From Schizochytrium sp. TIO01 (lineage: Eukaryota; Sar; Bigyra; Thraustochytrida; Thraustochytriidae): DNA of 64,000 nucleotides. Position numbers and translations under genes: made by a program. This document shows, piece by piece, positions 34,276 through 64,000 of this stretch; the stretch's first letter is position 1, and the number at the start of each line of letters is the position of its first letter. Where the stretch lies: positions 1,813,001-1,877,000 of the forward strand of contig SMSO01000033.1 in the NCBI GenBank assembly GCA_004764695.1, given 5' to 3'. The notes beneath the pieces are model-generated. The model was not told the DNA's origin. It did no database searches and was given only the letters and a program-made list of their open reading frames with translations.

Positions 34276-37200
34276 TTAAGCAGAGCTTGGGCATCCCAAA
34301 TCACCCGAGTAGCTGAAAGCGTACTCAATGCTGAAACCAAAGTTAGACATGCATGTAGCCTCAACGTTAGACTCAGCAGGGCAGCCACTCTCAGAGTTGT
34401 CCAAGTCACATTGCACAAAACGAATCGGGTTCACAAACAGAGGGTAGTACTTGCTCTTGTAAGCAGGAATCTCCAGAACACCATCACACGGCATGAGCGT
34501 AGAAGGAATGAAGAATACTTCAGTCCAGCCATCAGTGCTATCTTCGTACTGAACAGAGATACCATTGATGCAAGGGTCAGTGTCGTCACGTGTGGAGTAC
34601 TTGGTCACAGACTTAGCACAGTAACTGCTGACTGAACCAAAGTCACCAGCAGAGCCATATCTCTCCACAATAGAGTAAGGGTCGCCTGACTCATCCGCAA
34701 CAGCAATACATTCATTAATGAATTTCTTGTCGCTGCCAGACTCTTTCAGAGGCAAGAGAGCCTTACATACAGCCTTGATCCAAGCCTTGCCGGTCTTCTT
34801 CTCAGTACCCTTAGTAATCTGGCTGACACACTTCTTCACAGTGTTAGCTTGGTTGGCAGTCTTACACCAGTTCTCGATACCGAGAGAAATCTGCTCAGTG
34901 GTACAAGCACCAGACCAGAAGGCCTTGCAAGCAAGGTGAGCCAAAGACAGATCATTCACTTCGCACTCCTCGGCGTAAGAGTTGTCCGTGTAGTCCCCAC
35001 CGTAGGAGAGCAAATCTCCAGATACACAGTAGCCACTGACAACATTATCACCACGCTCAGTGTTGACATCGACGAGGTCCTCAACATTGAGGCGATACCC
35101 ACCAACGTATTCAGCATCATCGTTCGAAACAGAGTTCACACAGGTAAGGCGAATGAAAATACCAGTGGTTGGATCACGTACAGCATAAGCACGCTCGTCA
35201 GATCCGTAGCCCTCGTCACCATCGATGAAGGTCACATTAAAGGCATCTGCAAAATCAGTACCAGAAACGGTGGTCCAGCCAGGGTAGTCTATAGTGTCCT
35301 CAAAACAAGCCACAGGGTCCAAGGTGTAGGATCCGCTCGAAGTCTCAAGGTACATCATATCGAGAATGGAGCGCTCGCCTGTGGCAAAGCTGATGTTGTA
35401 GAAAGCAGCGCTGGAGTTGACAGTGTAAAGCACGATGATGTCTTCACCAGACACGGACCAATTCGGCAAACAGGGAGAACCGTACGCTCCGATACTGGCA
35501 CGGTTATTACCGATAAGCTCGCGCACGCTCTCATTCCAAACACAAGCGTTACCAGCATGGTCCTTAAGTTCAGTACAGATGTCTTCGGTAGGCCAGCAAT
35601 CAGAGTCGCGAGCGTCACAAACAATGAGCTTCTCGCGAGAACCATCAAAGGCCTGACCAAACGGATCACCCCAGAGCATGCAAGTCTCACAGCAGTCTGT
35701 CGAGTTTCCGCTGTCCTCGCTAAAGGTCAAAGTAAGAGTACCCTTGCGGGCCTTCTTCTCGAGGTTAGCACAAACCGTACTCATTTCAGAGTCAGAAGCA
35801 TCACAGTAGGGAGTGGTAATGGTAATGTTACGACAGGTCTGGTCTTCCTCGTCAACAGCGAAGTTGTTTGAGATACAGCAGTTCTGGCACGTTCCCAAGG
35901 TGTACTCATCCTGTTCGTTTGTAGAACAGACAGAGGGAAAGTCAACAGTCTCATCGTCGTAAACGCAAACATTGCAGGTAAGATCTCCTAGCTGGCAGAC
36001 ATCGCCTCCAAAGGTCACTGTAGCATTCACGGTGGCCAAGGGCTTGCAGTCTGAGCCATCATCAGCAACAAGACACTCTGCACCCTGACCGCACTGACGG
36101 AAGCGAATACGGTACTCGAACAAAGCCGGGAAGTCAGCACCTGTGACAGACATATCAGCGTCGCTGCAAGGAGGATACTCAGGAGGGATGTAAAACACAG
36201 GGGTCCAGTCACCATCCACATCAGCTTCAACAATTACACCAGTTGCACAAGTAAGATCGTCCGGAATGTCAGTGTACTCACTCAAAGAAGCGGCACAAGA
36301 AACATCCGAGGAGGTCCACTGGTGGGCAATGATACTTGAGTACACCTTCTCCCATGCAGGCCACCCGTTTTCTTCAAGAATGTTGACACATTCAGTGACG
36401 TATGAGTTCTGGGAGCTGCTGCCATAAGAAAGACCAGAGTTCATCTGACAAGCGTATTCAATCCAAGTCGTGGACTGCTCCGTTGAGTTGCCATTGCGAA
36501 GGTTTGTAAGACAAGTGGCAACAACCTCAGCGTACGTCACATCAGCACTGTATGCCTGAGTGTAAGCAAGCTCAGCAGTCTCACACCAGTACTGCTGCCA
36601 GTCCGGCACGGTACGCTCGTAGCAAGTATCATCAGCAAGGGCCTTACAGGTGTTGGCAAGGTCCGGCAGTGATGCAGAGAGACACTTGTAGTGAAGAGCG
36701 ACAGTATCGGCAACGTTAGTGCCACTCAAGTCGCCCGAAGGAATTACGTTGGTGAAGCAGTAGCCATCGCCAACACTGTCTGCGGTGATGCGAGTATCAG
36801 TGATGTTCTCGATATCAAGGCGAGTGCGGTTAGCACCAACAGCCTTGTTACAGATGACATCGGCGTAGATACCAATGCTCGCATCTCCAATGTGCCAGCG
36901 AATCTCCACATCGTTAGGGGTGCTTACACTCCATGTAGATGGAAGAGATGACACAGATGACGGAAGTGACCATGCGGCAGCAGCGCCAGAATTGCCAACA
37001 TCGCGAGGGTCATAGTTGAAACAATCCTCAGAGTTGATTGTGTACGGCTCGGAATCATCAGAAAGCTGAATGCTGAAGTCTGTTTGGAACACCACGCTCA
37101 CCAATAAGAGTGGACATGACGAGGCCATCAGTACTGAGAAGCACAAGTTCGAGCTGGCCACTTACGTTGTAGTCAGCTTGGCATGGGGAACCATCCTCGA

Positions 37201-37750
37201 GGTTGCTTGTCCACCAAGGATAGTTGAGGTTACCCTTGAGCCACTTGCAGCGGTTGCCAGCATGGTCGTACTGTTGACGACAGATGCTTTGCTCCATTTC
37301 ACAGGTAGTAGAGTTACGGGCATCGCATTCAATGAGCTGGTTAGTTGAACCGTCAAAGGCTTCGCAGAGGGGGTCACCGTAGCATTTGCACTTGCGGCAG
37401 CATGTATCATTGACGTCAGGGTAGGTGAAGGCGATCTCCAGTTCGAGGGTGTGTGAGCTGTTAGCCGTAAAGCCTGTACAGCCTCCGTCCTGGTTTTCAC
37501 AGTATGCAGACTCCATAATAGCTGTGCTGCAGATCGGGTCTGTGCTGTCGTCAGTGTAGGTATAGTTGAGCGAGTTACCGCAGCATGCACCAAAGTCGAA
37601 TTCCTGAGAACCACAGCCATTTGAAGCCCAGTTCATGGTTGAAAGCGTAGCGTCACAAGAATCCTGACCTGCGCTGGTCTGTGCAGAGGCCAAAACCACC
37701 ACAGCGGCAATCGCCGCAGATGTAAAGGCCTGCATTCTGATGAAGTGCAA
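34276..37750 (-). pseudogene. Secreted Cys-rich two-module protein, array copy 4, one frameshift
   Basis: Homologous to copy 3 throughout but split by one extra base. The N-terminal frame (37058-37750) gives 230 aa. It has a signal peptide (Met6 at 37735 fits the paralog starts better than Met1), CCGN, the first GDP-x4-FDG and DHAGNRCKW, and it goes out of frame just after GERGV. From about 37088 down to 34276 a second frame encodes the rest of module 1 and all of module 2, with WGDP and FDGSREKLIVCDAR intact. Copy 3 reads GTGTCCAAAC where this copy has GTGTTCCAAAC. Removing one base would give about 1157 aa, matching the family. No other break is visible, so this is either a young pseudogene or an assembly error. 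The second frame has no signal peptide of its own. Confidence 0.85.
37088..37089 (-). other. Frameshift site in array copy 4 (+1 base)
   Basis: On the plus strand TTTGGAACACC here corresponds to TTTGGACACC in copy 3 (near 30756). The extra A shifts GERGVQTDF to GERGVPNRL and leads to a stop at 37058. Confidence 0.85.
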
Positions 37751-42167: not shown

Positions 42168-45100
42168 CTAAGAAGATCCTGAGGTACAGCCTACACTGCC
42201 AGAATAACTATAAGCATAGCTGACACTCAATGGTAGCATGGGCATGCAGCTAGCTTCAATGTTAGACTGTGCTGGACAACCATCTTCAGAGTTGTCGAGG
42301 TCACACTGCACAAACTGAATTGGGTAGATGAAAAGAGGCCAGTACTTAGACTTGTACGCCGGAATCGTAAGTTCGCCATTGCAAGGCATTAAATTTGCTG
42401 GAATGAAGAAGAGTTCAGTCCACTCAGAACCAGGGTTGTATTGCACGGAGATTCCACCCACGCACGGATCAATTTTGTCACGAGTTGTGTATTTTGCAAC
42501 AGAGCTTGCGCAGTAACTGCTTACAGATGTGCGATCACCAGCGGAACCATACTCTTCAACGATTGAATATGGGTCACCAGACGACGAAGCCAGCGCTTGG
42601 CAAGCTTTTATGAACTCCTTGTTTGTCTGAGAAGAATCCTTTTCGGGCAAAAGGGCTTGGCATACAGCATTAATCCAATTGTTTCCAATTTTATTACTTT
42701 TCTTTGTGATTTTTTGCACGCACTGACTCACTGTATTCGGCTGGTTCGCTATTTTACACCAGCTCTCAACGCCAAGTTCAATCTCGTCAGGGGTACAGGA
42801 ACCAACCCAGAATGCCTTGCAGGCGCGTAAAGCCAGAGAGAGATCCTCTTCCTCGCAGTCTTCTGCGATGGTACTGTTTGTGTAATCTCCACCATAAACG
42901 CGTAGGTTGGCCGTTTCACAGTACCCACTTGCGTCACTGCGAGACACAACGTCAATCAACTTTTCGACGTTCAGACGGTAGCCTCCAATGTACGACGTTG
43001 TAACCGCTGGAGTGCGAACACATGTAACACGAAAGAAGATGCCTGAGTTTGGTTCGTAAACAGCCCAGACACGTTCATCAGTTCCATAACCTCCTTCTCC
43101 ACCATTAGTAAATGTAAGCTCAAGAGCAGAATCATAGCTATCCCCAGAGACAGTAGTCCATCCAGGGTAGGTAGAGGTGTCGAAGCAAGTTGTAGGATCC
43201 AGCGTGTAGCTTCCGCTTGCGGTTTTCAGGTTCATCTGGCTCAAAATTGAACGTTCACCAGTGTAGAAAGTCAAGTTGAACTGAGATTCTTCCAGAGCGT
43301 AAAGAACTACCTCAGCTTCGCCGGAGAGGTCCCAGTCTGGCAAACAAGGCGACCCATAAGCACCAATATTTGCTCGGGAGCTTCCAATCAAGTCTTGGAC
43401 AGTTTGATTCCAAACGCAAGCATTACCAGCATGGTCCAACGTGCTGTTGCAAATAGCCTCGTCTGTGACGCAGTCATCTCCACGAGCATCGCAAATGATA
43501 AGCTTCTCTCGGGACCCATCGAATGCTTGACCGAATGGATCACCCCAGAGGCCACATGACTGACAGCAGCTCGCGGTATCGACATTATCGTAACCTTCGA
43601 AAGTAAGAGTTAGCTGTCCCTTTCTATTCTTCTTTTTCAGCTTATTGCAGACACCGCTCATTGATGAATCGCTAGCATCACAAAATGGAGTTGTCACAGT
43701 AAGGTTGCGGCACGTTTGATCTTCCTGACCTGGTAAGAAGTTGTTACTTTCACAACAGCTACCGCAAGTTCCGATGGTGAATGTATCAGACTGACTTGCT
43801 TCACAGATTGCAGGTGCATCCTCAGTTGACGAAGTCAATTGGCAGTTGCAAAGGTTTGCAGAGCATTGTCGGGTTGGGAAATCAATGCTTCCAGAGACAG
43901 TGCTCAATGGCTTGCAATCTGAGCCTTTAGGGGCAACAAGGCATTCAGCCCCCAAACCACACTGGCGAAAGCGGATCCTATAAAGAAAGAGATCAGGGTA
44001 CTTGTCACCAGTTGTACTCAGATCAGCATCACTGCAGGGTGGGCTTTCAGGTGGGAAGTAGAAAATAGGCGTCCATTCGCCACTTTTATTGACTTCCAGA
44101 ACCAGACCCGTCGCGCATGTAAGATCATCTGGAATTGAAGTGAAGTCATCAAGTGAGGAAGCACAGGTTACTTCATCGGATGTCCATTGATGAGGAATTA
44201 CGCCATTGTATTCTTGGGCCCAAGAATACCAGCCGTTCTCTTCGATCGCGTTTACGCACTCGGTCACATACGAGTTTTGTGCAGACGAGTTGTATGAAAG
44301 GAGCGAGTTCATTTGGCACGCGTAATTAATCCAAGTCTTAGATTGCTCTTCAGAAGTTCCATCACGAATTTCTGTTAAGCAGGTCGCGACCATATCTGCA
44401 TATGAGCTTGCACTCACTGACGCTTGCGTGTTTTCTAGTTCTGCAGTCTCGCACCAGTATTGCTGCCATCCAGGAATTGTACGCAAATAGCATGTATCAT
44501 CAGCGAGAGCTTTGCACGTGTTTGCGAGATCAGGAAGTTGTGCAGATAAGCACTTAAAGTGCAAAGCAACAGAATTATCGACATTTGTTCCACTCTGAAG
44601 ACCAGAGTCAATCACATTAGTGAAGCAGTATCCATCGCCTTCACTATCTTCCGTAGGTCGTGTATCCGTAATATTCTCGATATCCAATCGAGTACGGCTT
44701 GCGCCCACAGCCTTGTTACAAATCACATCGACATAAAAACCTACACTGGTATCACCAACATGCCAACGAATCTCAACATCGTTCGGTGTGCTCACTGACC
44801 AGGTTGAAGGAATTGAGCTTACGCCAGACGGTAGCTGCCATGCAGTTGCAGCATCATCATCGCCAACATCGCGAGGGTCATATTCGAAGCAATCATCGGA
44901 ATTGATTGTGTATGGCTCGGAATCGGAAGAAAGCTGAAATGAAAAATCTGTCTGCACACCACGCTCACCAATAAGCGATGACATTATGACACCACTAGAG
45001 TTGACCAGAACTAGCTCCATCTGACCACTCACGCTATAGTCGGCTTGGCAAGGGGAACCATCCTCGAGATTGCTGTTCCACCACGAATAATCAGGATTGT

Positions 45101-45614
45101 TCTTAAGCCACTTGCATTTATTACCAGCATGGTCAAATTGAAGTCCACAGATGTCTTCCTCCATTTTGCATGTGGTAAAGTTTCTTGCGTCGCATTCAAT
45201 CATTTGGTTCGTAGAGCCGTCAAATGCCTCACAAAGAGGATCTCCATAACATTTACATTTTCGACAGCAAGTATCATCAACATCTGGATATGTAAATGTA
45301 ATGTCAAGATTCACCTCATGGGTACTGTTTGGCGTGAAGGTATCGCAGCCTTCGGTTGCACAGAATTCGGATTCCGCAATCGCGACACTACAAATTGGCT
45401 CAGTTTCACCGTCACTTGTAAACGTATACTCGAGGGAATTACCGCAACATCCGCCAAATTCAAAGGATAGGATGCCGCAATCGTCCGTACTAGTACTCCA
45501 AGGTAATGCTAGAAGCGAGGCATCACAAGTAGATTGCCCATTGACGGACGTCATTGACGATAGGGCAAGAAATGCTATCACGAGCAAAGCCGTGCCGGCC
45601 TGCATCGTGGGCAT
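42168..45614 (-). CDS. Secreted Cys-rich two-module protein, array copy 5 (vWD-like motif)
   Basis: An intact 1148 aa frame. The signal peptide is about 27 residues ending VNGQ; Met4 (45605) may be the true start because other copies begin near an equivalent MQ. Module 1 has CCGNSL, GDP-x4-FDG, ECDAR and a variant IC..QFDHAGNKCKW. Module 2 begins with GLWGDP near residue 690 and has a Cys-poorer CDARGDDC region. The C-terminus ends GCTSGSS. It belongs with copies 3 and 4 by the CCRKCKC segment and the NSL after CCG, but is clearly more diverged than that pair, so it is the older branch of the subgroup. No transmembrane helix is seen after the signal peptide. Codon use and GC content look like the other copies. 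Confidence 0.9.
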   Translation of the reverse strand: MPTMQAGTALLVIAFLALSSMTSVNGQSTCDASLLALPWSTSTDDCGILSFEFGGCCGNSLEYTFTSDGETEPICSVAIAESEFCATEGCDTFTPNSTHEVNLDITFTYPDVDDTCCRKCKCYGDPLCEAFDGSTNQMIECDARNFTTCKMEEDICGLQFDHAGNKCKWLKNNPDYSWWNSNLEDGSPCQADYSVSGQMELVLVNSSGVIMSSLIGERGVQTDFSFQLSSDSEPYTINSDDCFEYDPRDVGDDDAATAWQLPSGVSSIPSTWSVSTPNDVEIRWHVGDTSVGFYVDVICNKAVGASRTRLDIENITDTRPTEDSEGDGYCFTNVIDSGLQSGTNVDNSVALHFKCLSAQLPDLANTCKALADDTCYLRTIPGWQQYWCETAELENTQASVSASSYADMVATCLTEIRDGTSEEQSKTWINYACQMNSLLSYNSSAQNSYVTECVNAIEENGWYSWAQEYNGVIPHQWTSDEVTCASSLDDFTSIPDDLTCATGLVLEVNKSGEWTPIFYFPPESPPCSDADLSTTGDKYPDLFLYRIRFRQCGLGAECLVAPKGSDCKPLSTVSGSIDFPTRQCSANLCNCQLTSSTEDAPAICEASQSDTFTIGTCGSCCESNNFLPGQEDQTCRNLTVTTPFCDASDSSMSGVCNKLKKKNRKGQLTLTFEGYDNVDTASCCQSCGLWGDPFGQAFDGSREKLIICDARGDDCVTDEAICNSTLDHAGNACVWNQTVQDLIGSSRANIGAYGSPCLPDWDLSGEAEVVLYALEESQFNLTFYTGERSILSQMNLKTASGSYTLDPTTCFDTSTYPGWTTVSGDSYDSALELTFTNGGEGGYGTDERVWAVYEPNSGIFFRVTCVRTPAVTTSYIGGYRLNVEKLIDVVSRSDASGYCETANLRVYGGDYTNSTIAEDCEEEDLSLALRACKAFWVGSCTPDEIELGVESWCKIANQPNTVSQCVQKITKKSNKIGNNWINAVCQALLPEKDSSQTNKEFIKACQALASSSGDPYSIVEEYGSAGDRTSVSSYCASSVAKYTTRDKIDPCVGGISVQYNPGSEWTELFFIPANLMPCNGELTIPAYKSKYWPLFIYPIQFVQCDLDNSEDGCPAQSNIEASCMPMLPLSVSYAYSYSGSVGCTSGSS

Positions 45615-48644: not shown

Positions 48645-51600
48645 TTAACTTGAACCTCCAGCAGAGGAGCAGTCGAGATTGTCACTGTAGGAATAAGTGA
48701 GGCCAATCTGAAAGCCAAAGTTCGACATGCATGTGGCCTCAACATTCTGGCTAGCAGGGCAGCCATTCTCAGAGTTATCAACGTCGCACTGCTGAAAGCG
48801 AATCGGGTTTGTGAAAAGGGGAAGATACTTGCTGCTAGTCGCAGGTAGCTGCAAAATTCCATCGCAAGGTAAGTAATTAGAAGGCATGAAAAAGACTTCC
48901 ACCCAGTCGGAACCATCGTAATATTGAACAGAAACTCCGTTGATGCACGCATCAACATCATCACGCATTCCGTATTCAGATGGAGAGCTAGCGCAGTAGC
49001 TTTGAACAGATGCTCTGTCTCCTGCTGATCCATAGTTCTCGACGATTGCATAGTAGCCCTCAGTTTCTGCAAGGTCCTCACAAGAACGAAGAAAATCTGC
49101 GTCAGAATCTGTAGGTTGTTTCATCGGAAGAAGAGCCGTACAAACAGCCCTTGTCCAAAGCTTTGCGGTTCGTGTAGCGCTAGACCTTTTAATGCTGTTC
49201 ACACATTTCTGAACAGTCTTAGGCTGGTTAGCAATCGTACACCAACGCTCAATACCCAAATCAATCTGATCGGGGGTACAAGCACCAGACCAAAACGCCT
49301 TACATGCGGAGTGCGCTGCATTCAAATTAGTTTCTTCACATTCTTCGGCATCAGTGTTCTGAGTGTAGCTTTGGCCATAAGCACGAAGATCCGCAGTTAC
49401 ACAGAATCCATCAGTGTTGTCTCGTGTAAGATCTGTATCGATCAAATGCTCAATGTTCAAGCGATAGCCACCAACAAAGTCTGAGGTGATGGCCTTTGAG
49501 TTTACGCACGTAACACGGAAGAAAATGCCCATGTCAGGCTCGTAAACTGCCCAAACCCTATCGTCGTTACCGTAACCATGCTCACCGGCATCTGTGAAAT
49601 TCAAGACCAGAGCCGTGGAAACATCTTCCCCAGAGACTGTGGTCCAACCAGGGTAGTCAACATCATCATCGTAGCACGCAAGTGGATCCAAACGATAAGA
49701 ACCACGCGGGGTAGTCAAAAGCATTTGATCCAAAATTGAGCGCTCTCCAGTATAAAAGCTGAGTTTGTAGGACGGATTGGCTACTTCGTAGAGAACCACC
49801 TCATTTTCACCAGATCTCTCGTAATCCGGAAGACAAGGAGAACCGTAAGCACCAATGTTACCACGATTGTTTCCAATAAGGTCACGCACGGTCTGGTTCC
49901 ACACGCAAGGGTTACCAGCATGATCAAGTAGATTTTCGCAAACATCTTGCTGAGAAAAGCATGAAGTGTCACGCGCATCACAAACGATAAGCTTCTCGCG
50001 CGTGCCGTTAAATGACTGTCCAAAAGGATCACCCCAAAGCGCACAGTTATCACAGCATACCTTGTCGTAAAAACCAGAGTCAGGAGCAGAAACATTCAAG
50101 GTCAGCATGCCTTGTACATTTCTTCGGTCAAGCTGGTTGCAGATGGAGCTCATAGAGTCATCGTCACTGTCACAAAACGGCGTGTTGATGACCAGTTCAC
50201 GGCACGACTGCGACTCCTGCTCCGGAAGATAGTTGTTTGTGAGGCAACACTCCTCACAGAATCCGACATAGTACTCCTCAGTGTCGCCAGATTGGCAAAC
50301 TTGGGGCGACTCAGTGGAGCCATAGTCACGAACACATGTGGAGCAGTCTTCTCCTGACAATTGACAGAGGACACCAGAGAAGGAAAGTTCTGCATCAATT
50401 GAGACAACCGGCTGGCATTCCGTTCCTTCATCTTTAACAAGGCAACGTGCTGCAAGACCACATTGACGCATACGGACTTGGTAAAGAAACAGCTCTGGGA
50501 ACTGTGCTCCGTTGGCCTCGATCGAAGCGTCAGAGCAAGGTGGAGATTCAGGTGGAAAGTACAAAACAGGCACCCAGGTTCCACTTTGGTTCACCTCTAC
50601 CACAAGTCCAGATGCGCACTCGAGATCCTCAGGAATTGTGGTAAACTCATCAATAGAGCTAACACAGCGCTCCTCAGCGGTCCAATCATGAGCAATCAGA
50701 CCTTCATAGTTTTGGGCCCAAATATACCATCCATTTTCCTCAAGACGGTTAAGGCACTCATCTACATAAGAATTCTGTGCAGAACCACCGTACGGGAGTT
50801 GCGAGTTCATTTGACAGGCGTAGCGATCCCAAGTTGTGGCTCGTTCGTCTTCTGTTCCAGTGCGGATATCAGACAAACAAGTAGCAACCATCTCTTCGTA
50901 GGAGTTGGCACCACTCGAGGCCTGAGTGTACTGAAGCTCCGCCTTTTCGCACCAATATTGCTGCCACCCATCGATGGTACGCGGGTAGCAAGTGTCATCA
51001 GTCAAAGCCTTGCAGGTGTTTGCAAGGTCAGGAAGGTTGCGCGATACGCACGTAAAGTGACCAAGAGTGTCGTCGGTGTTGGTTCCACTCTGCTGCTCAG
51101 TATCAATGACACCTGTGAAACAGTAGCCTTCACCTCCGGTGCGGCTTTGCGTATCAGTAACATTTTCGATGTCTAGGCGGGTGCGTGTAGCGCCAATAGC
51201 TTTGTTACAGATCACATCGGCGTAAATACCAAGGTCATCATCACCGATATGCCAGCGAATCTCCACACTGTTCGGGATAGTCACTGTCCACGAAGAAGGG
51301 ATCTCAGAAACATTACTCGGAAGCACCCATGCGTTCGCAGCATTAGCTGTGCCAACGTCACGGGGATCGTAATCAAAACATACCGATGAAGAGATGGAAT
51401 ACGGCTCAGAATATCCAGGTAAGGTGATCATGAAGTCTGTCTGAACACCACGCTCACCGATGAGAGTGGAAAGGCGCAAACCATCGTAATCGAGCATCAC
51501 GAGTTCCAGCTGGCCGCTAACGTTGTAATCGGCCTGGCAAGGCGACCCATCAGCCAAGTTGCTTTGCCACCAAGGGAAATTATCGTTGCCCTTGAGCCAT

Positions 51601-52106
51601 TTACAACGGTTACCTGCGTGATCGTATTGTTGCCTGCAAATATCCTGTTGTAACTCACATGAGGTCATGTTGCGAGCATCGCATTCAATCATCTGGTCGC
51701 GAGATCCATCGAAAGCTTCACATAGAGGATCGCCATAGCACTTGCACTTTTGACAGCAAGTCTCACCGGCAGCAGCGTAGGTCATGGCCACATCAAAGGT
51801 GACAGTGTGAGTTGAGTTGGGTTCAAAGTTATCACAACCCAAGTTGGGGTTTTCACAGTACGCACTTTCCAGAATTGATGTACGGCAGACGCCATCATCG
51901 ACCTGGATTGCAGAATCGCTAGGAAGAACATTACCACAACATCCAACGAGACTAGTGCCCATGGTGCCGCATCCTGCAAGGCCGGTTGCACCCCACAAAA
52001 GTACATCCTCGCCTGCACTACATGTGGTTGTAGATGAATCCTGGGCACCAGCTAGTAGCACGGCAGATGCTAGTATGGCAGCTTTTGCTACCGATGTAGC
52101 GACCAT
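48645..52106 (-). CDS. Secreted Cys-rich two-module protein, array copy 6 (vWD-like motif)
   Basis: An intact 1153 aa frame, the rightmost member of the array. A short signal peptide (about 22 residues, ending LAGAQ) precedes the first cysteines. Module 1 shows CCGNVL, TCCQKCKCYGDP, FDGSRDQ, ECDAR and DHAGNRCKW. Module 2 restarts with ALWGDPFGQSFNG, where FDG is replaced by FNG, near residue 691. The CCQKCKC segment groups it with copy 1 rather than with copies 3-5, so the array ends resemble each other more than they resemble the centre. The C-terminus is polar and ends SSAGGSS with no anchor. No further paralog lies to its right within the window. Confidence 0.9.
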   Translation of the reverse strand: MVATSVAKAAILASAVLLAGAQDSSTTTCSAGEDVLLWGATGLAGCGTMGTSLVGCCGNVLPSDSAIQVDDGVCRTSILESAYCENPNLGCDNFEPNSTHTVTFDVAMTYAAAGETCCQKCKCYGDPLCEAFDGSRDQMIECDARNMTSCELQQDICRQQYDHAGNRCKWLKGNDNFPWWQSNLADGSPCQADYNVSGQLELVMLDYDGLRLSTLIGERGVQTDFMITLPGYSEPYSISSSVCFDYDPRDVGTANAANAWVLPSNVSEIPSSWTVTIPNSVEIRWHIGDDDLGIYADVICNKAIGATRTRLDIENVTDTQSRTGGEGYCFTGVIDTEQQSGTNTDDTLGHFTCVSRNLPDLANTCKALTDDTCYPRTIDGWQQYWCEKAELQYTQASSGANSYEEMVATCLSDIRTGTEDERATTWDRYACQMNSQLPYGGSAQNSYVDECLNRLEENGWYIWAQNYEGLIAHDWTAEERCVSSIDEFTTIPEDLECASGLVVEVNQSGTWVPVLYFPPESPPCSDASIEANGAQFPELFLYQVRMRQCGLAARCLVKDEGTECQPVVSIDAELSFSGVLCQLSGEDCSTCVRDYGSTESPQVCQSGDTEEYYVGFCEECCLTNNYLPEQESQSCRELVINTPFCDSDDDSMSSICNQLDRRNVQGMLTLNVSAPDSGFYDKVCCDNCALWGDPFGQSFNGTREKLIVCDARDTSCFSQQDVCENLLDHAGNPCVWNQTVRDLIGNNRGNIGAYGSPCLPDYERSGENEVVLYEVANPSYKLSFYTGERSILDQMLLTTPRGSYRLDPLACYDDDVDYPGWTTVSGEDVSTALVLNFTDAGEHGYGNDDRVWAVYEPDMGIFFRVTCVNSKAITSDFVGGYRLNIEHLIDTDLTRDNTDGFCVTADLRAYGQSYTQNTDAEECEETNLNAAHSACKAFWSGACTPDQIDLGIERWCTIANQPKTVQKCVNSIKRSSATRTAKLWTRAVCTALLPMKQPTDSDADFLRSCEDLAETEGYYAIVENYGSAGDRASVQSYCASSPSEYGMRDDVDACINGVSVQYYDGSDWVEVFFMPSNYLPCDGILQLPATSSKYLPLFTNPIRFQQCDVDNSENGCPASQNVEATCMSNFGFQIGLTYSYSDNLDCSSAGGSS

Positions 52107-52206: not shown

Positions 52207-54471
52207 TGTACTTGTTTTTATAACGTTTAATGTGGATTGCATAACCTACCTTTAGCTACAATAGACTTGCTGCTGCTTTGAAGCGAAGCTGCAAAAGCAG
52301 TTTCGGGTTTGCTGACTTCGCCGCTGTGATTGATTGAACTTTGATATTTCCACGGTTCTAGTGATGATGTTTTAGTGCGCGGTTTCCTTCTAATTCCACC
52401 TCTGCTCATATGTTGTCAAACCTAGTATTTCATAGTATTAACCTATGTGCAAAAATACCAAGTGTGACTTTTAAGCGTTTGAGTTGGGCCTTACAAATCC
52501 TTAGTGCATTACTATATACGGCCACACTCTGGCGTGATGACTTCAAAAAACCATTGCAAGGCTAAAAGACAAATGGAGCAATCACCAACATGAAAAGGAA
52601 TCATCACGTCTTTTGAAGAAATCATTACAGTGTCAAGTCACTACTTCCGTCCATTGCACATTTCCCAGATACAAATGATCACGAGGAAAATAAATATAAA
52701 GATACAAGTTTTTACGTATAACATTTTCTTAATTAGAGAGAGCATTCATTACTTGAGAGTTTCTTTCTCCTTCACTTAAAAGCTTCAATATCCCTACCAA
52801 AATTATGAGACAGAGTCACGTCATAGCCCATCCAAAAGTGGAAGCCATTTGTTCATAGTTCATTTCTACCAAGAGCTAACTTTGGCTACTGATTAAATGT
52901 CCTTCCGAGCGTGTGACCACCTTCTTTACCGCCTCCATTGAACAAGAATACTTGAAAAGTACGCATCAAATATCAAATTAAAGTCCTGTACCTTGGCCCT
53001 TTACTGTTTGCTTATCGATATGACTGCCAACCGCCCAGGCCGCCTGGTAAAGACCCAAGCTGGTAATGGGCCAAATGATTAGACGCACGCAGTTCGTATG
53101 ATAAGAATTTCGAGGACAACGCGAGTGCAGCCACGGATATTCTCCACTGCGATCGCAGCAGTCTTGCTATAAAGAAAGTCAGTCATGCGCAAGTGCACAA
53201 GTAATCAGAATCATGCAGCCAGACCTGCAACTAACTCTTCGGAGCCCTCAGCCTCAGCAGCAGTGTTGGCAGTAGCGAGACTAGCCGGTTTGAGATCTGC
53301 GCTGCTCGAGTGTGGACACTTGATTGGCATGAATTGCATCGTGATCGCAACACCGCAAGCTTGCTCCGATGGGCTCGTGCATGATGGGCACGTCTCACGT
53401 CCATGAGCATGCACCTTTTTCTTTGTTGAAGAAGCGTTTTCAGCAGAACAAGAAACACATTGGTTTCCCTATCCGCAGAGGGCCAATCATAGGAGTAGTA
53501 GCAGCTAATCAGCATGCCCCATTCCCTTTCACTCCTTTTCTTTTAATTCGAATAATTTCCAGGTCTGATTGTGTCCATGGCGTTCGGATTGGGAAGTGTT
53601 TGGAGCAAGGCGATGAATGTCCTAGGTAGCAATTTGAGAAGGATCCACGTGAGGATGTCTTTGTTGGCTGCAAACCATGGAACTATAACTGCTACTTTAT
53701 TCTCATTTTACCTCTTTTGTTTTTTTCCGCTGATTTATTACCAGAAAGGTCTCCTCGCTGGTCATACTTCAAAATAAAATTACATAAAGAATTAATGGAA
53801 TATAAATATTTACTTATAATACATCAAAAAAGCTTTGGAGAAATGTGCGAGGGTCATATTGACCCAGCATTGTTTCATCTTTGGTTTCACTGTATTTGGA
53901 TACGCTACGCCTGCTCGTCTTTTTGTTTCTTCGAACTCCAGCGCGCCTCCAGCTGCTCTCTAGGCTATTCCTACACAAATCCCAGATCCTTCTTTCTCTG
54001 CGCTTGATTCACAATCAATCAACCAGGGTTCACCACAAAGTGAGAAGCTGCTCATTCCCTTTTTTTCTTCATTTTTAATTCTAAGATCCCAAAATAACAA
54101 AACAAAACAAAACAAAAAACATACAAACAAGCACACAAAAAGAATAAGAAAAGAATGAGAAAAGAACAAGGAAAGAACAAGAGGAATTCGGTTCGTTTCT
54201 AGGCTCCACCGCGGCCATCAATCCATTGCCATACATTGAAGTTCCTCGAAGTAGAGCTGCCGAGGATTTCATCAACAGACCTCCACTTTGCGATCTTGGG
54301 CGAGGCCTGGGAAGAGCTGAGCCGCGCTTCAGTGTCGTCTTCCAGCATCCGCCAATCGCTCCGCTCCTCTTCCCGCCGCTCCAAACCAACTGACCGATCG
54401 CAGTTTCCTTCGCACACAGAAGAACGACCGCCCTTCAGCTCTTGACAGGCCGCCCGAGAGAGCCCTGAAGA

Positions 54472-54613
54472 ACATACATACATACATACATACATACATA
54501 CATACATACATACATACATACATACATACATACATACATACATACATACATACATACATACATACATACATACATACATACATACATACATACATACATA
54601 CATACATACATAC
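54472..54613. repeat. (ACAT)n microsatellite, about 35 units
   Basis: An uninterrupted 142 bp tetranucleotide tract, the longest simple repeat in the window. On the minus strand it gives the repeated peptide MYVC in open frames; these are not genes. Confidence 0.98.
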
Positions 54614-54800
54614 GGCCCTCAGCCAATGGCCAAGCATGGCGCTAGATCCGCGCTTCGGCTCAAGCTCGCGTTGGCTCCTCAAGACAGGCCGCGAAGCTGG
54701 CTGCTCATACTGTTCAGCAAAAGCGCGAATGCACTGCGCCACGGAGCCAAGCAACTCCAGGGTCGCCTCTGCCAGTGAGTGAGGTTTCGTGGTGCCGAGT

Positions 54801-54840: not shown

Positions 54841-57511
54841 ATGATGCAGAGGGTTCCTGCCGAGAGTGGATGGATGGACGGTATAGAAGTGACAGGCGAG
54901 GCGGGGCGGGGCGCCATCTTGTTGGTTGGCGAACCTGGCGAAGAACGTGGCGGTCCACCGACGATGGGCTCCTTCTTATTTAGTATGACCCTATGCTACA
55001 AAATATGCAGAAATCAGTATTATGCCTACCCTTGGGATTTAGTCTATTGTTCCATAAGAATTAAGGGTTTAATTATTTCCTGAAAATGAAGGGGGGTTCA
55101 GTTGGCGCTGGTATGGGTTCACGATTTCACTTTGACCTCTTGAGAGAATCTCTAGCTCAAGTATTGGCGCTCTCTACGAGGTGTGCAGAAAAATGAGATC
55201 CCCGTTCGTGCTTCTGTGCACGGAGGCTTTCTGGTGGACAAGTATAACTACTGCCGCGGCGTGTTCTCCAACCCCAGTGAGCCTCAAGGATATCCACCTT
55301 CATTTCTACAAGTTACACTTTTTTTTCTTCTGATTTTCTAGATTTTAAACTTTAAATTAAATACCTAGTCCTAAGTTACTACTTTTATGTTTTAAAATGT
55401 TATATTTTATTTTATTTATAAAAATAAATAAAAACGTCTAAACTTGAAATTTTTATCTATAAAAAGGACAGGATATATATTCTCACAAAGACATTCCAGC
55501 TTATTGCCGATACGACCTTCCCGGGATTACTCCACGCAGCCTGCCCCCACGCTCAGCAGCTTTCTCGAGCGCGGAGACCCTATCTTTCCTCGACGGATCT
55601 CAAAAAAAAAAAAAGGCCTAGCTTTAAAATGAAGCATCCCGTTGTAGTACGTACAGATTCAAACCTCTACTTAAAAAAACTGCGAAACATGTAATCGAAA
55701 ATTGACTTCATAAGTTGTAATGATAATTTATTAGAAATCTGTCGCATGTAAAACAGCACATTACTGAACTGTTTTGTATCATACCTAACTTCAGTGTGGC
55801 AAATCAAGATCAATTTTCGAAACATATACGTGAATTTCACGAGTTTGAGACTCGCAAAACATTCTGAAAATGAATAAGATATACTGCTGATATACTATAA
55901 ATATTTTGTTCACATTCTTCTGCTTGTATTCGTGTGACTTTATCCATTTTTTTAAGGTCTTGTCATAGTTGCGCTACTTATGAAATCTACTTTACTACCC
56001 AATGCTCTCTTATAACGTAACTAAGGACCTTGGAGTCATCATTGGGCTACTGTTTAGACTGTTAAAATTGTCAGATGCTACTTTACAGATAGGTATAGCA
56101 GGATAATAAATAATCTCGTACATTACCTCTCATAGTGACATTCTCGATCAGTCTGACTTCACTCGTGCACATCTTATGCAATCTTTCACTACTTTTATTT
56201 TGGAATTCTATTTTACATGGTGCAAATCATTTATCGAACTCACGAACCACAAATATGTGGCTTTTTCCAAAACAACAACCATCAGTAATCAAATGTAAGT
56301 CTATAGTTGCTTAAACCCCCACCCACCTCAGCAGCAGAACCCTTTCAGCGCATATAAATTATGAATGTATTCTGTCTCGTTCGAAACTCAATCGCCTGTT
56401 ATTATACGATTAAACTTCCAAAACACATTCGATCAGGAAAATTATGAAGCTATTATGAGTGTTGAAATCAGCAGCTAGTCCAAAGCTAAAACTTCACATA
56501 TTTTAGATCAACCAAACAGACTAAAAGTATAATGAAATTGTACCCCAAAGTTGAGTTCGCTTAAATCCTCGGGAGCTGGCAGATAAACTCTTTGCTTCAA
56601 TCTCTCATCAGAACAGTAGTTGGTGCATATAGAAGCTCGGCTTTGCCTTTGTTTGCAAAAAGAAATGCTCTATAAAACAAGTCAAGATTATGACCGTTTT
56701 CAACCAAACAATATTTTGACAGGCATATTCAACTTATATATACAGTGACATTCTATCTATATCTCATCTATCTTCCACTATTATCATCTTTTGAATGCGC
56801 GCGTAATCCATTCAATAGAAGTATCAATACGCCTGGATTTTCGATCTGAAAGTTTTACAGATTTTAATACATCATCGGCATATAGAAACTTTGAATACAG
56901 TAAGAACGATGTGCCAGTATAGTCCTATATGCTAGCTAGCTACCTGTTCAACTAGTGCAGCACTTCCAAAGGTCTCTGTTCGACTTTTCAACCAGCAAGG
57001 CACTGGCAAACGACTTATCTCAAGACAAGCTCCGTTGGACAATTTAATCAATTCTGTCTATACAAAACCGGAATTACAATTATCCCCAAATTCATTGGGT
57101 TCAATACATTAAATTACCTGCAGAGTGAAGCATATTTTAAAAAATTACGACGATTCTGTAAAATTGCTACTAACTAACTAAGTAGTTGGTACCTAGCAGA
57201 TTTCTATATTCATTAATCATTTATAACTTTTCTTTCTTTAATTATATTTATTATTGGCCTGAAATAAATTAACTTGATACTTCGAGTTGACCAGGTCGAA
57301 TTCTAGAAAACGCCATCATGCTCCATGTCTGCTAAAGGTATCAAGGATATAAAAGAAAAGAGACTAACTAGACCTACTAGTAATACCTACATCCTGTCAC
57401 GTAGGTAAATTTTGCATAGAGGGATGTTTTTGTACAGTCTAACAAAAACCGTTAAAATTTCTATAACTTATATTTCGATGTGCTTGTTTCATATTAATCA
57501 TATATTATACT

Positions 57512-57519
57512 TAGTTAGA
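57512..57519. repeat. Candidate left subterminal repeat of the IS607 element
   Basis: TAGTTAGA, 33 bp upstream of the tnpA start, is the inverse of TCTAACTA at 59559-59566 just after tnpB. IS607 recombinases bind short repeats near both ends, so this may be a binding site; eight bases is weak evidence. Confidence 0.25.
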
Positions 57520-57551
57520 TCTTTAATAAGAAGTGGAGGTTAGGTAAGAAA

Positions 57552-58250
57552 ATGGGGAGGCCGAGGAACCGACAAGCTCCAAACACTGCAAGTGGAGCAA
57601 ACCTCGAATACAAACCAGCAAAGTTCTTTCACCGGAAGTTTGGGGTCTCAGCAAGCGCCCTTCGGGGCTGGGCCGACGGCGGACGCGTGCGCTTCGCGCG
57701 CTTCCCCGGAGGCAAGCGCATCTATGCCAGCGACGATGTTGAGCGCATCTTTGATTGCGGTTCCACCGGCCGCGAGCAACGCAGCTCTGGATGTACCGTT
57801 ATCTACGCCAGAGTGTCCTCGGTCAAGCAAAAGGAGGACCTCGAACGCCAGGTTGGCGATCTCCAGCGCGCCTACCCAGATGCTTCCGCCGTCTACAAAG
57901 ACATCGGTAGCGGGGTCAATTTCAAACGCCAAGGTCTGTGCTCCCTACTGGACGCCTGTGACCGCGGCGGAATCGGCCAAGTTGTGGTCATGCACCGCTA
58001 CCGACTTGCGCGAATCGCAGTCGACCTCTTGGAACACCTTTTCGAAAGATAAAATGTCAAACTCGTGGTACACGGCCAAGATGCACATGCCGGAGACTCA
58101 GACACCTTCACCAAAGACCTCCTCGGAATCATCACCGTCTTTGTGGCATCGCATCACGGAAAACGAGCAGCGCAAAATAGACGGCGACGACGCAGCGAGG
58201 AAGAAGCGAGCTCGCACGAAGGCGCGCAAGACCACCAAGAAAGAATATGA
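57552..58250 (+). pseudogene. tnpA: IS607-type serine recombinase TnpA, interrupted by one in-frame UAA
   Basis: The first 166 codons hold a MerR-like helix-turn-helix (about residues 24-68, with GKRIYASDDVERIF). The serine recombinase domain follows, with catalytic Ser89 in YARVSS, DIGSGVNFKRQGL (about 117-129) and HRYRLAR (about 148-154), all IS607 hallmarks. A TAA at 58050-58052 ends this frame at LLEHLFER. The same frame stays open to 58250 and encodes the expected remainder, including DLLGIITVF (the IS607 DLLSIxTVF helix) and a basic tail. A single substitution from CAA, AAA or GAA explains the stop. Other genes here end in TAA, so a reassigned code is unlikely. The truncated product lacks the C-terminal helix, so it is probably inactive unless read through. 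The gene is markedly GC-rich. Confidence 0.85.
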
Positions 58251-59529
58251 CCTTGTCCGTGCCAGAAAGGTTAGGGTATACCCTACTAAAGATCAGCGTA
58301 CACAGTTGCTTAAATGGTTTGGTGTCACTAGAAGAGCCTACAATACTGGCGTTGCGTTTCACCGAGACATGGCGAAGGGCGAGGAAGAAGCCATCAAATT
58401 GCATCAAGAAGCGTGCATCAAAAAGGATCGTAAGACGAAGCAGGTTTTGGTAGATGAAGATGGGAATCCAAAAACACATCGGGCCCTTGGTGGAGAACTG
58501 AATGCCGTCCGATATAAAGAAAGACATGATCCTCCTAAATGGGTTGTCGAGGTCCCACAGGCTATCCGTGATTCCGGGATTCGGGATTTCTTCAAGGCTC
58601 TTAACTCGGGACGAGCCAAAAACGAAGAACTCGCTGCACAAAAGAAAGTTCACGAGCAATCTTTTTATAAGTTTCGGACCAAGCGTGACGAATCACAGAT
58701 TTTCGAAGTGAATGCACGTACCTGGAATGCGAAGAAATCAAAGACCTCCAACTTTCTAAAAGAATTCCGAATGCGTAAAGAAAAGTTCCCCGACCAGATT
58801 TCGAACGCCATGCGTGTGCAAATGAATCGCCTTGGGCATGTCTACTTCTGCTTCTTACGAGAAGAAAAAAAGCGTCCAATGGACCAGGCACCCAAGGGGC
58901 ACCATGGTGTCATTGCTCTAGACCCGGGTGTTCGCTCGTTTCAGACGATGTATGACGCCGATGGCCGCGCCATTGAATGGGGCACAGGGAAAGATTTTAG
59001 AACCATATTCTATCTCTGTCGCCGCGTTGATAAGATCCAAAGCAGCATTGATAAAAAGAAAACTGCATCCAGTGATAAAGACAATTTCAACACCCCCTTG
59101 AAGCGCGCCTTCTATCGCGCCCAACTCAAGATCAAGAACAAGATCACTGAGATTCACCGCAAGCTCGCGCTTTGGCTTTGTGAAAACTATCGTGTTATTC
59201 TCTTGCCTAAATTCGAAACCTCTAAGATGAGTAGGAGGATGGAGCGACGGATCTCCAAGAAGTCTGTTCGAATGATGTGTCGTTGGCGCCATTTTGGGTT
59301 CCGACAGGCTCTCATTCATAAGGCTGAGATGTTCCCGTGGTGCAAGCTTGTTCTTTGCCAAGAGAGCTACACTTCAAAAACATGCAATGAGTGCGGTACC
59401 CTCCACCATAACCTCGGGGCATCCAAGATTTTCCAATGCCCTAATCCCAAGTGCAACCATGTAGCAGACCGTGATGTCCATGCCGCAAGAGGCATCCTTT
59501 TACGCTACCTATCCAAGGACATGATTTAA
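58054..59529 (+). CDS. tnpB: Fanzor2 / IS607 TnpB-like RNA-guided RuvC endonuclease
   Basis: A 491 aa protein starting at ATG 58054, one base after the premature tnpA stop. The frame is open upstream to 57592, but that part only shadows tnpA. A basic N-terminal tail (RKKRARTKARKTTKK, nuclear-signal-like) precedes the TnpB start RKVRVYPTKDQ...WFGVTRRAYN. The RuvC site is complete: Asp290 in ALDPGVRSF, Glu388 in LPKFETSKM, Asp474 in DRDVHAARG. The zinc ribbon has Cys444, Cys447, Cys462 and Cys467. The family uses an RNA from the element's 3' end to guide DNA cleavage and support element retention. The length fits Fanzor2. No frame breaks or lost catalytic residues are seen, so the enzyme may be functional even though its recombinase partner is broken. 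Flanking hairpins after the stop are a candidate guide scaffold. Confidence 0.92.
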   Translation: MSNSWYTAKMHMPETQTPSPKTSSESSPSLWHRITENEQRKIDGDDAARKKRARTKARKTTKKEYDLVRARKVRVYPTKDQRTQLLKWFGVTRRAYNTGVAFHRDMAKGEEEAIKLHQEACIKKDRKTKQVLVDEDGNPKTHRALGGELNAVRYKERHDPPKWVVEVPQAIRDSGIRDFFKALNSGRAKNEELAAQKKVHEQSFYKFRTKRDESQIFEVNARTWNAKKSKTSNFLKEFRMRKEKFPDQISNAMRVQMNRLGHVYFCFLREEKKRPMDQAPKGHHGVIALDPGVRSFQTMYDADGRAIEWGTGKDFRTIFYLCRRVDKIQSSIDKKKTASSDKDNFNTPLKRAFYRAQLKIKNKITEIHRKLALWLCENYRVILLPKFETSKMSRRMERRISKKSVRMMCRWRHFGFRQALIHKAEMFPWCKLVLCQESYTSKTCNECGTLHHNLGASKIFQCPNPKCNHVADRDVHAARGILLRYLSKDMI

Positions 59530-59605
59530 AAAAATCATTTCATTGAGTCGCGGGTTAGTCTAACTAGCTCGTGATGGAGTCTAGCTCCTTCTATGAAATG
59601 CAAGT
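59530..59605 (+). ncRNA. Candidate Fanzor guide RNA (fRNA/omega-RNA) scaffold at the nuclease 3' end
   Basis: Directly after the nuclease stop, CATTTCAT (59536-59543) pairs perfectly with ATGAAATG (59593-59600). Inside it, CTAGCTC (59564-59570) pairs with GAGTCTAG (59577-59584, one bulge); GGAG (59576-59579) with CTCC (59585-59588) is an alternative. GTTAG-T-CTAAC (59554-59564) is a further palindrome. Guide RNAs of TnpB and Fanzor2 come from exactly this position, often overlapping the end of the gene. The fold is read by eye and the RNA ends are not defined. Confidence 0.45.
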
Positions 59606-60925
59606 TTTGCAAATTTTATAGTAAAATCTAAGAGTCCAAATCGGAGATTTTATTCAACTGAAAACCTAGCAAACTATTACGAACTTTGAAAAGAAAGGAG
59701 GGCAGTAGCAATCTCAGACGGTTATCTACCTTCAGGACTTCGAGGATGAATTTTATGTTTTGTAGTTGACTTAGGAGTGAAGGAATCAGAAAGTTTTGGC
59801 TTTGCTTTGTTTATGGGGGCTGTCACACCTGACCCAGCAAACTCAGCCTCCAAGGATTGTATACTACTCTGTGTCCTGGATGTCATACGGGCAACCTAGC
59901 ACAGAATACCTAGTCGCTCTATCAACGTCGAATTCAAAGCTTACAATCCTGCACATTGATAATCTTGCTTGATCGTCTCGTGAATCCCTCCAGGTTGTTG
60001 GAATTGTCGGATTAGACTGTTGAACATTGAGCACAACCAATTATCTTCATTTGAGGCGTTAACATCTTATATCACTGAATATCCATTATCGCATCAGTAC
60101 CTTACTTCGTTTTTTGGTGAAGAATAAGCACGATCATAAACTGTCTAAGAGCAACCATTTGGGGTGTGTTCAATGAATTACTCTAAGCCAAACCAAAACG
60201 CTATGCAAGGCAAAAATGATGTTTTTCAGTATGATCACTCCACCTTGAGTTCCATTAAGAGTTATTTAGAACAAAAATTCTTGAAGATCATCGCCATCTA
60301 AAATATTAGATAAAATCGCTGTAATATTATTTCCAAAACACCATCGTGTGGCAGATGGCAGTTTATCAAGCTTGCATTCATAATAAATCAGGTATCATTT
60401 GTGGATATATCTGATATATTTGACGAGAGATGTAGTTACGACTCATCCTGAACCTATCATTCAAGTAAAGTTGATAGTAGTAAAACTTGTATCCTGATAT
60501 TTCAAATCAATTTACTAGCTTTTTGTCGAAGAAACATGACTCTCACGAATTCTGCTGTCGCTCAGTATAGAGGGTATGAATAATAGAATTATTTTAAATT
60601 GAATATTTGCTGACGCAGTCGTTTTTTTGTTCTGTTTGCTGTCTGTAGTTTTCTGTTTTTAAAATCCTGTATCAATTGCTCATCTCTCGCTTTTAAAATT
60701 CTAAGCTTACAGGTTTAAGATTGATCAATCAAGCCTAGCAATATTTTTGGCTTTGTAGAATATCCAATGGAAGCAATTAATTGACAAGACATTGCTAGCG
60801 TTATAGGCATCCCTTTGTAAGAAACTATGAATATAAGATTTACAATAGAATAGAACTAGACAATCAGACTCGCCTGGATTAGGAGTCGAGAACCGAAAGT
60901 GCGCATACTTTAATACTAGAACCAT
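59606..60925. other. Intergenic between the IS607 element and the Copia LTR
   Basis: AT-rich sequence without a supported gene. Near the left end two further inverted repeats occur: ATTTTA-tag-TAAAAT (about 59612-59626) and AAAATCT/AGATTTT (about 59621-59651). They may still belong to the IS607 right end. Confidence 0.5.
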
Positions 60926-61610: not shown

Positions 61611-62672
61611 TCCACAGTCTGTGCATTCAATAGTGTGTGACTATGTCATACATGATCGATGCGAGGCAGTGACTTGGTGAGACAATCGGAGGGGTTCAAT
61701 GTGCCAGGGATATGTGTGATTCGAATGTCACCTGCGTTCAGCTTGATTGACAGATCAAGGTACTTCAATAATAGGTGCTTGTTTCGTGATTGCAAACAAC
61801 CCTGCTCCACTACATTTATTACTGCTTGAGAGTCGGTGAAAATATCAATGCAACTGATGTTGATCCCGAATTCTTCTAGTAAATGTCGGACACCTTCCGC
61901 AGCACGACTAGCTTCGTAGATGCTAATGAGTTCTGCTTCAAAGGTGCTTTGGGCTGTGATAGTCTGTTTGGTTGATTTCCATAACACAGCACTATCATTG
62001 AGTCTTACTACGTATCCACTTACCGATTTCATGTGTGGGTCGTTGATTTGACCAAAGCTTGCATCAGCAAATACATTAATCTTGATATCCTTCACTGAGC
62101 TCTGTCCTTTTAGCACAAGACCATCATTTGTGGTTCCTCTAAGATATCTGAGGGTCCTCTTACATGCGTCCATGTGTACTGGTCCATTCTTGTGTCCGTG
62201 TCTAGATAGTTGGTGAAGTGGGTATCCAAGGTCGATTCGTGTGCAACTGAGGTACATGAGCTTTCCCACAATTGTTCGGTAGTCTGGGTGTTGTTCATCT
62301 TTATCATGGTCAGGAAGATAGCACTTAGCCTCCATTGGTGTTTTACATGAGTTAGCTTTGTCCATCCCGTGATCCTTTAATTTCTTTTCTATATGGACTG
62401 CCTGGGAAATCTTGCATGTTTTTGCATCCAGGTTGAACTCATGTTTGTTACCTAAGTAAGTGGCAGTGGCTGGGTTTATCTCACACTTGACGTCATACTT
62501 TGCTTTTAGAGTGTTGATTGTTTTCTTCACTGAATTCGGAGTTCCTGTGATTAATAGGTCGTCCACATGACTGATGACAATGGCTTCGAGTCCGATAAAG
62601 CAACTTGGGTCGAACTTGCTTTTCCGAAGTCCACAACCTTCTAGGGTTTGGGCTAGGTGTTCAGCCCACCTT

Positions 62673-62738
62673 CGAGGACTTGTTTTCAGTCCATAGAGGG
62701 ATCTACGAGGACTTGTTTTCAGTCCATAGAGGGATCTA
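62673..62738 (-). repeat. Perfect 33 bp tandem duplication in the reverse transcriptase
   Basis: 62673-62705 and 62706-62738 are identical. The duplication keeps the frame and adds eleven residues (a second SLYGLKTSPRR) in the conserved RT segment normally found once. Confidence 0.95.
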
Positions 62739-62863
62739 GCAAGTTTGAAGATGCATCCTTCTGGTACTTGTACACCTCTCGGTGGTCGGATGTAGATGGG
62801 TTCCTTTTCATGATCGATTTCTGCTTGTAAGAATGCAGCCGATACATCCAATATCGCGAATGA

Positions 62864-62866
62864 CTA
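62864..62866 (-). other. In-frame TAG stop in Copia pol
   Basis: The frame reads IIVALTKN, TAG, then SFAILDVSAAF. Homology is continuous across the stop, so it is a point nonsense change rather than a gene boundary. Confidence 0.85.
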
Positions 62867-64000
62867 GTTCTTAGTGAGAGCAACAATAATGGCTGTTCTC
62901 AGCGATAATCTGTCCGTGGTTGGGGCGAAAACATCCCACGGAGATGTTAGGGGTTCATTAGTCCCTTGAGCAACTAGCCTGGCCTTGGCGGTTTGCTGAG
63001 GTGTTTTGTATGTGAAAATCCATGCGGCATTGATGATAGTGCCTTTTGCATCCTGTTTGGGTACAATGAGGAAGGTCCCACTCCTTTCAAGATTAGACCA
63101 CTCTTTTCTTATCGCCTCAGTCCATATTTGACGTTCCTGGTATGGTAAACGTAGATAGTCACTGAAGTTTCGAGGCGCGACAATGAGTTTTGATTGTTGG
63201 TCCTGTTTTACTGTTGGTTCAATTCCAACCCGTGTGGATTGAGACTTCTTCTTCTTTGATGGGCTATGCATTTCATGTATTGCAGAGGGACTGTTACAGT
63301 GATCATAACGTGTCCGTTTCTGTAGTGCTTTTGTCCCATCATAGACTTGTGATACCTGCTCCCCCGGGACAAAGGACGGGGAATGGTCAAAAGAAGATGC
63401 CTGTAAAACATGAGAGGGATAGCGATAGGTATTGGCCCTCCCCAGGGCAGCCGCGTCCGCATTTATCCATTGGGTGCGGCGGGAAATTCGTCCACTCCTG
63501 GTCCGTACCTCTGTATTGGGTACGGGCTCCTTGGGATCCTCATCGGGATTCGACCAAGGTGGAGAGTTTGATTCAGACTCCGCATTATCATGTGGAGGAA
63601 TAGACATACGGTCTAGGTTGGATTCAATGTTAGTTGAATCAGCTACATCAGAACTAGTATGTGATGAGCTCGTATTCGCCGGAGAAGTCTCACTTCTATG
63701 GGAGAGTTCTGGCAAAGATAGATTATCGTGAGTCTCCGATAGGTCACAGGACGCTATCCCATCCTGTCGGTGCTCACCCTGACCAGCGTTTGCCTGTCTT
63801 TGAGATTGGGACAGGTCATGCTCGAAATCAGGTTGTATCAAGTCCTGTAGATTTCTAACCCTGCTCGGGTGATCAGGTCGAGATGTCGACAGTATGCGAC
63901 TGGGTGAATCCACGGAGAGGGCATCGTTGTCACACAGCCTGTTAGAGCTGGACGCAGATCCTAAATTGGGAGATGACGCTACCAGTGGGTCGTTTGGACC

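Follow-up and report, generated by a model that had tools for sequence, protein, structure and literature searches.

Is a transposon that carries an RNA-guided nuclease in a thraustochytrid genome a lone and intact system, or one member of a family? The question arises from 64,000 nucleotides of Schizochytrium sp. TIO01 (contig SMSO01000033.1, positions 1,813,001 to 1,877,000; this whole stretch is called the window, and coordinates count from its first letter), in which an initial annotation had proposed an IS607 element with an apparently intact Fanzor2 nuclease. We find that the IS607-type transposon with its open Fanzor2 frame is real and resident in a eukaryotic genome rather than a contaminant, and that it is probably (we would put the probability at about 0.7) a member of an IS607-type Fanzor2 family that has been spreading recently and moves by the mechanism proposed below. 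The assignment to IS607 and Fanzor2 in a eukaryote stood, on domains, RuvC fingerprint and fold; the element is neither intact nor alone, and one catalytic residue had been misidentified.

The element, its copies and its nuclease

57438..59634, plus strand: window copy of the IS607-type Fanzor2 element; bounded by where homology among genomic copies stops, on the left to within a few bases
58054..59529, plus strand: Fanzor2 nuclease frame, 491 residues; domain, motif, alignment and fold evidence
58921..58923, plus strand: D290 of RuvC-I, in DPG; motif and alignment
59362..59364, plus strand: E437, predicted alternative RuvC-II glutamate, six residues ahead of C444; conservation and published scheme
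59473..59475, plus strand: D474 of RuvC-III; present in 30 of 31 aligned proteins, with one gap

Comparison among genomic copies replaced the limits first given (57512..59650) with ∼57438-59634: homology starts near 57438-57443, the left end of the window copy directly following a CAG at 57435-57437, and stops sharply at CTAAGAG, with 59634 as the right end. No terminal inverted repeats of the element were found, and no constant target duplication among the copies, some of which have short matches and one of which (L017) has 11 nt. The eukaryotic host proposed at the outset was confirmed by a copia-type RVT_2 frame at 61646-62851 and by a genome of 64,063,054 bases in 37 contigs, that of the window measuring 2.9 Mb; a PfaA-type polyunsaturated fatty acid synthase (TIGR02813) exceeds its cut-off in this genome and in 0 of 14 control genomes, which points to a thraustochytrid.

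Searching this genome by tblastn with the nuclease returned at least 103 matching pieces on many contigs, including 14 full-length pieces at 91-100% identity without stops, the rest being truncated, frameshifted or decayed, down to ∼30% identity. Other queries agree that the element is multicopy (34 places with the TNB profile, 31 with a 101-nt 3'-end query and 50 pieces with the tnpA region), all of these counts being lower bounds. The nuclease frame is open in 14 of the 21 copies aligned and translated, the window copy included, and eight copies have both Fanzor2 and TnpA frames open; an older second copy beside L006 was excluded from alignment A2. The element is thus one of at least 14 open-frame copies, accompanied by many relics, and not a lone element. 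Two old, internally deleted copies (L126 and L127) have kept both ends and lost most of the nuclease gene.

The open 491-residue frame was upheld by matches to PF12323 and PF07282 (HTH_OrfB_IS605, 1.2e-9; Cas12f1-like_TNB, 1.3e-13). Confidence is mostly low across residues 1-67, where the frame also overlaps that of tnpA, and the annotated start is provisional. D290, D474 and four zinc-ribbon cysteines (444, 447, 462 and 467) were confirmed, the DPG motif that begins with D290 being invariant across the 31 aligned proteins. E388, by contrast, had been named as the catalytic glutamate; it is Glu in 27 of the 31 and His, Asp or Ser in the other four. We rejected it because E437 is invariant (31/31) and because the published Fanzor scheme has the catalytic alternative glutamate six residues upstream of the zinc finger; E437 is thus the predicted catalytic glutamate.

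All 14 open-frame copies keep LDPG, the spacing of six residues from Glu to Cys, and ADRDVHAA; the sequences show the nuclease family to be under constraint. An extra stretch at about residues 110-146 is absent from the prokaryotic relatives aligned, and adjoining it, at residues 151-175, the ratio of nonsynonymous to synonymous polymorphism (pN/pS) is 1.37. Residues 126-175 (58430-58580) are the most divergent part of the nuclease among the copies of this one genome.

Transposase, target site and guide RNA

57552..58052, plus strand: tnpA, a broken IS607 serine-recombinase gene; stop after 166 codons, and D150Y
57999..58001, plus strand: tnpA codon 150, Tyr replacing the Asp of the DRL-R motif; private to this copy among 20

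The expected IS607-type serine-recombinase gene does lie upstream of the nuclease, its frame matching Resolvase (2.1e-14), but "intact" holds for the nuclease frame only. The window tnpA stops at codon 167, against 232 codons in nine other copies (copies picked for their open frames), and the DRL-R Asp, present in all four solved IS607-type sequences displayed, is Tyr in the window copy alone. The window TnpA scores 105.2 bits against the NCBIfam IS607 transposase model (NF033518), under the cut-off of 110; in three sister copies the open TnpA clears this mark at 143-144 bits; a test for the MerR-type helix-turn-helix of IS607 TnpA gave a weak match (E 0.006), under its cut-off.

The stop is found in seven of the 20 copies (L001, L003, L004, L005, L012, L015 and L029). 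Five of these (L003, L004, L005, L015 and L029) also carry a 294-bp insert at an identical place in tnpA, 99.7-100% alike, and share a block of tnpA variants with the window copy. The insert belongs to a dispersed genomic repeat with at least 41 matching pieces, the five insert copies included. It was considered as an intron and ruled out, since it has A at both unambiguous ends where an intron would have GT-AG, and since it recurs as a dispersed repeat. In L003 it occupies positions 787-1080; it contains (TAACC)n, and some pieces of the repeat lie within a few kb of contig ends. On neither side do the flanks of different copies resemble each other, and this holds for L015 and L029 too; the exception is old-element similarity in the flanks of L006, L014 and L016. 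The lineage therefore reached new sites after acquiring the stop, and five copies did so also after the insert. Six copies of this lineage share the stop at unrelated sites, the five with the insert among them, and copies kept spreading without a transposase of their own, presumably helped in trans. The eight copies with both frames open could supply TnpA.

57435..57437, plus strand: left-flank CAG, a candidate for target motif and TAM; seen in 14 of 18 copies, function inferred
59635..59654, plus strand: flank on the right, where the guide is predicted to begin (length assumed); placed past the conserved right end after the TnpB/Fanzor scheme

Natural insertions give a hint of the target. Of 18 copies, 14 have a CAG no more than 12 nt from the conserved left end, where 2.8 would be expected from the same flanks (P ∼8e-9), and all 18 have A or T as the first base beyond the right end (P ∼3e-5); both patterns were noticed before they were tested. 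L009, L020 and L021 have no recognizable left end, and L029 and L125, found later and outside the count of 18, also have CAG. These sites suggest that CAG serves as target motif and target-adjacent motif (TAM), and an exchange at an AG dinucleotide, present in the left CAG and in the AGAG of the right end, would fit the pattern; for IS607 itself the exchange is at GG, according to PMC6188088.

59519..59634, plus strand: predicted four-stem omega RNA scaffold, sharing its first bases with the 3' end of the nuclease frame; folding, with two private deletions

The structured 3' region noted earlier was recovered. These 116 nt fold at -33.7 kcal/mol, against -18.75 (standard deviation 2.99) for shuffled sequences (z -5.0), and 0 of 200 shuffles did as well; z is -6.7 in L003, while the old copies L024 (0.30) and L023 (-0.37) do not beat their shuffles. 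Applied to 29 copies, 25 of them distinct, the structure of the window copy has 87.0% of cells paired, compared with 41-47% when partners are slid; 1 of 500 shuffles reached the real score in pairing percentage and 2 of 500 in the number of cells with both partners changed. The third stem carries a loop, UCUUAG, that is complementary to the right end (CUAAGA), which predicts a pseudoknot: the pairing run is at least 6 in 16 of the 29 copies, and its mean is 5.34 versus 4.04 (standard deviation 0.19) with shuffled ends. According to PMC10711439, a pseudoknot of this kind is required by the ISXfa1 TnpB and has been predicted for Fanzor2s. Shorter runs occur in L020 (3), L021 (2) and the window copy, where the run is 3 because of a one-nt deletion in the loop; a second private deletion has removed 2 nt from the stretch that joins the last stem to the right end. 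Given these deletions, the window copy is not the family's best for a guide-RNA test. Comparison across copies thus supports an RNA structure, the covariation doing so moderately. Across the window, Rfam returned nothing at gathering score.

Proposed mechanism and competing explanations

Under the mechanism we propose, TnpA of other copies would move the element by exchange at the AG inside a CAG target. Fanzor2 would load an RNA in which the 3' end of the element is joined to the neighboring flank, recognize CAG as its TAM and cut the unoccupied site, and repair after the cut would copy the element back. The window copy would be moved, and perhaps also given guide RNA, in trans.

Several observations weigh against this account. 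The distance from CAG to the conserved CAAAA varies from 3 to 8 nt among CAG-bearing copies. In L017 the first eleven nt of the right flank (AAGAAACAAAT) also stand directly after CAG; neither this repeat nor the variable left ends are accounted for by plain IS607 serine-recombinase exchange. An empty insertion site, sought in the same genome with 13 of 16 prepared joined-flank sites (L002, L006 and L019 were excluded), was not found. For the RNA, the real count of pairs with changes on both sides was reached by 93 of 500 shuffles, and that of pair types by 311 of 500. Sliding the partners by +3 columns gave 12 pairs and 28 cells double-changed against 8 pairs and 18 cells in the structure, and RNAalifold retains 13 pairs, its covariation term being -0.08. 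The comparison of nonsynonymous with synonymous rates (dN/dS) used 14 copies that had been picked for open frames. Finally, the guide scaffold of the window copy is altered by its private deletions.

This last point bears on the strongest alternative, namely that the window copy is a dying relic, with a broken transposase, an altered scaffold and a nuclease frame that is merely still unbroken and yields no useful product. The TnpA stop and D150Y would be expected of such a relic, as would two private 3' deletions and a predicted pseudoknot run that has fallen from 6-7 to 3, and decayed relatives are numerous in the genome; nevertheless, the nuclease frame is wholly open with all its motifs, and the copy could borrow the RNA and TnpA of others. 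We regard this as possible, with the odds somewhat against it, and, as it concerns the window copy, it is compatible with an active family.

The tnpA stop could instead have spread among older copies through gene conversion rather than transposition. L012 has the stop and position 58029 in common with the group but departs from it elsewhere in tnpA, and trees built from three parts of the element disagree; on these grounds we conclude that segments have been exchanged among copies, and conversion may have given L012 its stop. For the family as a whole the explanation is unlikely, since five copies carry an insert of near-identical sequence at one position along with the tnpA variant block of the window copy, and conversion is likely for L012 only.

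More doubtful still is that what multiplied the tnpA-broken copies was Fanzor2 cutting with repair by the host, as homing or repair capture, in place of TnpA in trans. Such copies did multiply, the imprecise left ends and the repeat around L017 resemble break repair, and TnpB is described in PMC11870625 as driving IS200/605 copies into plasmids that lack them. Homing alone, however, would lead to the same site in another allele rather than to unrelated ones. The CAG motif and sharp right end suggest a single recombinase, and eight copies are able to supply TnpA. It is likewise improbable that this Fanzor2 lineage has outlived its own transposase, with tnpA-broken copies spreading via nuclease and host repair while the nuclease stretch missing in prokaryotic relatives diversifies among the copies within one genome. 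Bacterial contamination or an assembly artefact, which the mainly cyanobacterial nearest cellular relatives might call to mind, is very unlikely in view of copies and relics on many megabase-size contigs, an insert in five copies that is a dispersed repeat of the same genome, only 28-35% identity to prokaryotic relatives, and 13 joined-flank searches that matched their own two flanks only.

We thus favor a family moved by TnpA in trans, and the point of interest in it is the multiplication of copies whose transposase is broken and whose nuclease is open. Variants within one genome (both genes open, only the nuclease open, internally deleted, scaffolds differing by small deletions) bear on what Fanzors do for transposons in a native eukaryotic host and make that question testable. 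Genetic transformation is in use among thraustochytrids.

Elsewhere in the window, six similar long Cys-rich proteins stand in a row on the minus strand:
806-4252, minus strand: Cys-rich protein
20346-23267, minus strand: Cys-rich protein
27936-31403, minus strand: Cys-rich protein
34276-37735, minus strand: Cys-rich protein, split over two frames
42168-45614, minus strand: Cys-rich protein
48645-52106, minus strand: Cys-rich protein

They measure ∼1150 residues where complete and mostly have, by eye, a signal-like N-terminus; three compared with Pfam gave nothing above cut-off, and one compared with the PDB nothing convincing. A long simple repeat at 54199-54754 reads (MYVC)n in one frame, and pieces of a copia-type retrotransposon occupy 61646-63913 on the minus strand, the RVT_2 match lying within 61649-62851.

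Relation to known systems

Fanzor2 in IS607-like elements is already known, and the window element adds another member. In PMC3627910 such elements are described from giant viruses, Acanthamoeba, yeasts, a choanoflagellate and Phytophthora, and in PMC10432273 cutting was assayed for NlovFz2 and MmeFz2. A limited literature collection had no paper on Fanzor2 in Aurantiochytrium or TnpB in thraustochytrids, and in IMG/VR, which may be poor in giant viruses, no close relative was confirmed, two pattern matches (L030 and L031) giving no usable row.

An open-reading-frame filter took 29 rows from 84 stretches (80 listed), namely 28 with DPG and the alternative glutamate, plus L109; alignment A5 held 25 of the 28, with L038, L073 and L106 excluded as near-duplicates. 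In a tree the nuclease groups with the DPG/alternative-glutamate rows (31-row fork 88/84; 28-row fork 91/95), apart from ordinary TnpBs, but the mimivirus L79 protein, on a very long branch, falls outside them, and the element's own is the sole eukaryotic Fanzor2 in the tree. The nearest rows are cyanobacterial "pro-Fanzor" TnpBs of IS607 elements, which, according to Yoon et al. 2023 (PMC10711439), also have DPG and the alternative glutamate; they are up to 45% identical over 203 columns in the C-terminal half, and differ in their prokaryotic hosts and in lacking the extra stretch. Ordinary TnpB (ISDra2, 8h1j/8exa) and Cas12f differ in having the catalytic glutamate at the canonical place in the published scheme, and the ordinary TnpB rows (Thermus, Staphylococcus) are distant in the tree. 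Fanzor1 (Spizellomyces SpuFz1) is likewise a eukaryotic RNA-guided RuvC nuclease with the alternative glutamate; its fold match is much weaker (4.5e-5 and worse), and Fanzor1 nucleases belong to other, non-IS607 transposon types, whereas an IS607 tnpA lies upstream here. With DPG, the alternative glutamate, an IS607 element of a eukaryote and a Fanzor2 fold, the nuclease is closest in kind to the Fanzor2 of IS607-like elements (mimivirus L79, PDB 9b0l; Bao and Jurka 2013), which likewise has DPG, the alternative glutamate and an upstream IS607-type tnpA. L79 is its best match in sequence and fold among solved structures, yet at ∼20-25% identity, and the present family differs further in its many copies in one eukaryotic genome.
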